25,916 nt of DNA from a virus: positions 1-25,916 of IMG/VR virus record IMGVR_UViG_3300025840_000217; one strand, 5' to 3'. This document shows, in pieces, positions 12,709-12,780 of the stretch. The notes below the pieces were generated by a model that saw only the letters and a list, made by a program, of their open reading frames with translations, was not told the DNA's origin and did not search any database. The position numbers were made by a program, and so were the translations under genes. Numbering within the stretch: the stretch's first letter is position 1; each line of letters begins with the position of its first letter.

Positions 12709-12780
12709 ATGTGGACAAAACCATCAGCAACAGAAATGCGTTTCGGCTTTGAAGTTACAATGTATGTTTGCAACAAGTAA
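12709..12780 (+). CDS. pqqA: PqqA, precursor peptide of pyrroloquinoline quinone
   Basis: A 23-codon gene. The peptide opens [10 protein letters not shown] and closes [13 protein letters not shown]. In PqqA the radical-SAM enzyme PqqE crosslinks a Glu and a Tyr in an E-V-T-x-Y motif; here they are Glu15 and Tyr19, exactly as in the 23-residue PqqA of Klebsiella, and M-W-x-K-P at the N-terminus also agrees. AAAGGGG lies 7 nt before the ATG, and a TATAAT promoter lies 49-54 nt upstream. A hairpin follows 11 nt after the stop. The gene points against all its neighbours, like a phage moron. No pqqB-E is present, so maturation needs host enzymes. The sequence resembles PqqA of methylotrophic beta-proteobacteria, which fits a methylotroph host. 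A peptide this short could match by chance, but the full-length agreement makes that unlikely. Confidence 0.92.
   Translation: [23 protein letters not shown]

Follow-up and report, generated by a model that had tools for sequence, protein, structure and literature searches.

Pyrroloquinoline quinone (PQQ) is made from a ribosomally produced precursor peptide, PqqA, whose residues Glu15 and Tyr19 become the cofactor itself; PqqA is a substrate, one molecule being used per PQQ, and PqqB-E are catalysts that are reused. PQQ-dependent enzymes carry out the methanol oxidation of marine and freshwater methylotrophs, bacteria whose phages are common. The classic auxiliary metabolic genes (AMGs) of phages, psbA and psbD of the cyanophages, serve the photosystem; a phage pqqA may be likened to them in principle, as a case in which the phage replaces something that the host's energy metabolism uses up quickly, but psbA and psbD encode protein subunits whereas PqqA is a cofactor precursor peptide (a RiPP substrate), and there is no homology between them. 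PqqE introduces a cross-link between Glu and Tyr into PqqA (PMC9851590). Phage pqqA is itself already known: in Lake Baikal, PqqA was found on the T4-like virus VP_266, which has a predicted Methylophilaceae host and also carries a methanol dehydrogenase, and PQQ supply was proposed as its role (PMC7678222, 2020). A 2026 paper on reservoir sediments lists viral pqqA among P-cycle AMGs, reading it as phosphate solubilisation; methylotrophs do not enter into that account, and the gene itself is not analysed (PMC13188868). Unlike the survey presented here, the report on VP_266 concerns a single metagenomic case in another type of virus and does not cover prevalence, isolates, conservation or the substrate-only pattern; the prevalence of the gene, its repeated presence across lineages and the fact that published annotations of the isolates lack it appear new.

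The locus described here lies in an IMG/VR virus record of 25,916 bases, analysed in its entirety (the window), which is genuine phage DNA, with a terminase and phage modules. Positions 12709-12780 (+) form a 23-codon frame for PqqA. The original prediction had claimed the full PqqA pattern for this peptide and proposed a profile search as the check; both family models are matched far above their curated cut-offs, Pfam PF08042 over the full profile with 43.3 bits (E 3.2e-11, cut-off 21.1) and NCBIfam TIGR02107 with 44.7 bits (E 7.9e-12, cut-off 20). In keeping with the family, the peptide has the expected length, Trp2, Pro5, Glu15-x3-Tyr19 and the Asn-Lys/Arg end (here Asn-Lys), and is encoded by a short stand-alone ORF with a Shine-Dalgarno motif; the peptide of the isolate phage Venkman is 95.7% identical. 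Judged by profile and residues, it is a bona fide PqqA, and a chance origin is excluded because the peptide recurs at the matching site of Venkman and elsewhere in unrelated phages. What sets the phage copy apart from the bacterial family is that it stands alone, without pqqBCDE, although host copies can stand alone too, as in the OM43 strain LSUCC0665. None of pqqB, pqqC, pqqD and pqqE is found in the window. PHROGs has no family for the peptide, which is part of the reason why pipelines overlook the gene.

The signals around the gene are those of a lone unit. The Shine-Dalgarno sequence AAAGGGG (12695..12701, +) ends 7 nt before the ATG and makes a strong ribosome site, which had been called excellent. 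Upstream of it, a TATAAT at 12655..12660 (+), aligned by eye, is probably the -10 element of a promoter dedicated to pqqA; GTATAATTACA is found again 5' of pqqA in several relatives, and among 144 distinct viral copies 48 have a TATAAT between -80 and -20, a frequency that is 10% in shuffles. A consensus scan calls no two-hexamer promoter at the window pqqA, and two-hexamer scores across the viral copies are barely above those of shuffles; a dedicated sigma-70 promoter is thus predicted with moderate support. Between the TATAAT and the ribosome site lies a perfect 17-bp palindrome, TGTAATCAATGATTACA (12668..12684), which has no second occurrence in the window even when 3 mismatches are allowed; it looked the part of an operator, but most relatives do not conserve it, and it is at best a possible, putative operator. 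Directly 3' of the stop codon, a G+C-rich hairpin (GGGGGA...TCCCCC, 12792..12813; called on the - strand, but a symmetric inverted repeat) is terminator-like and would close pqqA as a single-gene unit; it may also mark the end of the opposing early operon. Viral pqqA genes in general have a 3' flank that can form a hairpin (mean MFE -14.5 kcal/mol, against -7.6 for shuffles).

To the left of the gene lie a small ORF (12384..12629, -), divergent and outside the pqqA unit, and DUF3310; to the right lies a recombination module, with a YqaJ exonuclease (PF09588, 13247-13858, -) and a Sak single-strand annealing protein (PF06378, 13842-14399, -). The gene had been placed in an early region between DNA-metabolism genes; the early/replication block is confirmed, but pqqA is on the strand opposite to its early neighbours, as a lone unit in the direction of the late genes.

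A search with the PqqA peptide through a phage collection of 50,697 records finds near-identical pqqA genes in nine of the nine Methylophilales phage isolate records of that collection (P19250A, Venkman, MEP301, MEP401, MEP402 and Melnitz, the last four times), a count of names with a collection record, outside of which fall the taxonomy names MEP431-434, Venkman EXVC038S, HIM624-A, phiMB624-A and two more of the form 'Methylophilaceae phage'. The remaining matches are the metagenomic relative ctXG6705, two records named 'Acinetobacter phage MD-2021a', and one weak match (E 5). The isolates with pqqA are cultured, their genomes are complete, and they span five lineages: no significant similarity links the terminases of the window/Venkman group, P19250A, MEP301 and MEP401 to one another, and Melnitz is T4-like. 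The closest isolate relatives of the window infect methylotrophic Methylophilales, in agreement with the methylotroph host originally proposed. By terminase, the closest outside relatives of the window and MEP301 groups are Pelagibacter phages, and no Pelagibacter phage is among the PqqA matches in the 50,697 records.

In Venkman, the gene occupies the same position as in the window, which answers the call to look at this locus in related phages; in MEP301 it is likewise close to YqaJ/ERF recombination genes, and in P19250A, MEP401/402 and Melnitz it lies at other places. These differing places, and the differing orientations, suggest that phage pqqA was acquired several times. The isolate records whose annotation was read have no feature at pqqA, or just an antisense 'hypothetical protein' over it. 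In Melnitz (MZ577097.1), for example, the gene lies at about 76137-76208 (L007 3998-4069), about 10 nt upstream of a tRNA-Leu, with such an antisense annotation on top. Phage pqqA goes unmentioned in the papers on Venkman, MEP301, MEP401/402 and Melnitz, the original P19250A report and other subscription papers lying outside this comparison; the auxiliary genes of MEP401-type phages have been listed, pqqA not among them (PMC10580990). P19250A was said to have none of the AMGs reported from Lake Baikal (PMC7678222); contrary to this statement, it does hold an unannotated pqqA, at 28085-28153. That the gene was missed is due to its size of just 23 codons.

Viral copies in IMG/VR were collected with DNA patterns. 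A codon pattern for GFEVTMY gives at least 120 loci, and all 120 listed are PqqA-like frames with a Met start just upstream. Across 158 viral pqqA loci, which add up to 1.34 Mb, and 7 isolate or relative loci, none of pqqBCDE is found, which extends to all of these what had been noted for the window; the same search on host pqqA loci finds them in 35 of 119. That such contigs might belong to the host or to remnants of prophages and have been filed as viral in error, with pqqA a bacterial gene, is brought to mind by one of the 'Acinetobacter phage' records, which resembles a bacterial contig with pqqABCDE. For the isolates this explanation is refuted by their complete genomes, and for the other loci it is exceedingly unlikely, since pqqB-E is in no viral locus and phage replication or structural genes adjoin pqqA. 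The 'Acinetobacter phage MD-2021a' match was itself rejected as a phage: the record read has pqqB-E beside pqqA and the look of a bacterial contig (CAKLQF020000010.1, L008, which also encodes a polyphosphate kinase).

Gene sharing divides the viral pqqA loci into one large group and many small ones. Universal presence in metagenomic relatives, tested by terminase group, was not found; the gene is common only, in 8 of 9 records of the window/Venkman group (of at least 22 kb), 5 of 7 of the MEP301 group (at least 30 kb), 5 of 9 of the P19250A group (at least 32 kb) and 2 of 6 of the MEP401 group (at least 30 kb). Some of these absences may be due to incomplete records.

The GFEVTMY pattern fixes Glu and Tyr, so conservation was read from a second pattern, which leaves codons 13-23 free and yields 118 distinct contexts among the matches listed. 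Loss of Glu15 or Tyr19, or of the frame, in related phages had been named as evidence that would count against the prediction; Glu15, Tyr19 and the stop codon are kept in 118 of 118 of these contexts. Over codons 13-22 (110 distinct sequences, among the matches listed), pS is 0.64 and pN 0.038, a pN/pS of 0.059, from which viral pqqA is judged to be under purifying selection. A Shine-Dalgarno motif precedes 151 of 151 viral copies, as against 27 of 453 control windows. All this bears on whether pqqA could be passive cargo, picked up from hosts by recombination and of no benefit to the phage. The several stand-alone copies in hosts would make the gene easy to acquire and part of the relatives lack it, but the low pN/pS despite heavy synonymous change, the unfailing ribosome site and the retention of the gene in the compact genomes of five lineages disfavour this reading, which we regard as improbable.

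In bacterial genomes, the PqqA-peptide pattern occurs mostly in methylotrophs (Methylotenera, Methylophilus, Methylophaga, Methylobacillus, OM43 and others). The comparison with Methylophilaceae PqqA, called for at the outset, reveals that 62 of the 118 viral peptides (matches listed) are letter-identical to a host peptide, many phage copies having exactly the peptides of Methylotenera or Methylophilus; at the nucleotide level, the median identity between a viral copy and its nearest host counterpart is 93%, and the viral gene is taken to be of host origin. A further function outside PQQ synthesis, such as that of a small regulator or host-takeover peptide with a PqqA sequence, would fit a gene that stands alone outside any pathway and whose PQQ function is read from sequence; it is nevertheless very unlikely, as what is conserved coincides exactly with the profile of the PqqA family, down to the two residues from which PQQ is built, and the gene goes with methylotrophic hosts. 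Some viral variants are unlike the Methylophilales type (L033, L036, L087, L012, L021, L026 and L032), portal/head-tail genes being present on the contigs of L033 and L036; the contigs with variant PqqA may come from phages whose hosts are PQQ producers of another kind, methanotrophs for instance.

The hosts have the enzyme that a phage peptide would need: PqqE is over the cut-off in 96 of 100 genomes in the family of LSUCC0665. They also hold pqqA in excess of one. Among OM43/LD28 and related genomes of about 0.9-1.9 Mb, 10 of 11 have 2-5 copies, mostly three, and one has a single copy; LSUCC0665 (G101) has three, at 52357, 875061 and 875260, the last two in tandem, none of which adjoins pqqBCDE (at about 765-768 kb). 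A methylotroph with five copies is on record (PMC9851590). That highly reduced genomes retain extra pqqA suggests that the dose of PqqA matters to the streamlined OM43 hosts.

The reading we favour, with a probability of about 0.8, is that phage pqqA is a functional, substrate-only AMG of methylotroph phages, here those of Methylophilales, that sustains methanol oxidation. The phage would produce the peptide during infection; host PqqD and PqqE would cross-link its Glu15 and Tyr19, and host PqqB and PqqC, with a protease, would complete PQQ for the XoxF/MxaF methanol dehydrogenases. Should the host's own expression fail during infection, the peptide would run out before the PqqB-E enzymes. PqqA being consumed and PqqB-E reused, the phage need bring only 69 nt, and replacing this one part would keep methanol oxidation, the cell's energy source, going through the lytic cycle. 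The idea that a phage delivers the substrate peptide and borrows the enzymes of its host, part of the original prediction, gains support from PqqE in the hosts and from the lack of linkage to pqqB-E in every phage copy. From the genomes alone we infer expression in infection, cross-linking by host PqqE, a higher PQQ supply and a gain in fitness; that infected cells run short of PqqA is a point reached by reasoning. A counterpoint comes from some engineering work, as cited in PMC9851590, in which overexpression of pqq genes in methylotrophs gave little gain in PQQ.

On a broader scale, it seems somewhat probable that PQQ precursor supply is a general bottleneck in infected methylotrophs, for which unrelated phage lineages have each acquired the 69-nt substrate gene, forming a widespread class that gene callers have missed for its size. 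If nearly all isolates carry a PQQ precursor gene, phages may routinely steer methanol flux, and pqqA could serve as a short sequence tag for spotting methylotroph phages in metagenomes. Venkman, Melnitz and the MEP phages are already in culture with their hosts, so the idea is open to testing now.

A direct link to methanol oxidation is seen in one of the 50 larger pqqA-bearing virus records, IMGVR_UViG_3300025120_009955 (72 kb), which encodes a full-length PQQ methanol dehydrogenase (608 bits; L618:7990-9864, about 33,989-35,863 of the record). Its best solved relatives are lanthanide-dependent XoxF enzymes, and it has the motif WDYDGINE, where solved XoxF proteins have WDYDGINE or WDFDGINE; by the second Asp of this motif, which we take to be the XoxF signature, and by these relatives, the viral enzyme is classed as XoxF-type. 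The pairing also bears on the converse of a supply role, an inhibitory decoy, in which a flood of peptide diverts or stalls PqqD/PqqE and shuts methanol oxidation down. PqqA binds PqqD/PqqE and the phage makes it without the remaining pathway, two points in favour of such a decoy, but in a decoy the cross-linked Glu and Tyr should tend to be lost or altered, and they are invariant (118/118, matches listed), the phage peptide often equals that of the host, and here pqqA is accompanied by a PQQ-dependent methanol dehydrogenase; a decoy thus seems quite unlikely. This record is the second case of pqqA and methanol dehydrogenase on one virus, after VP_266 of Lake Baikal (PMC7678222). Directly after the XoxF-type gene, a 946-aa protein is encoded, the best PHROG match of which is annotated as a DmsA-like molybdoenzyme.
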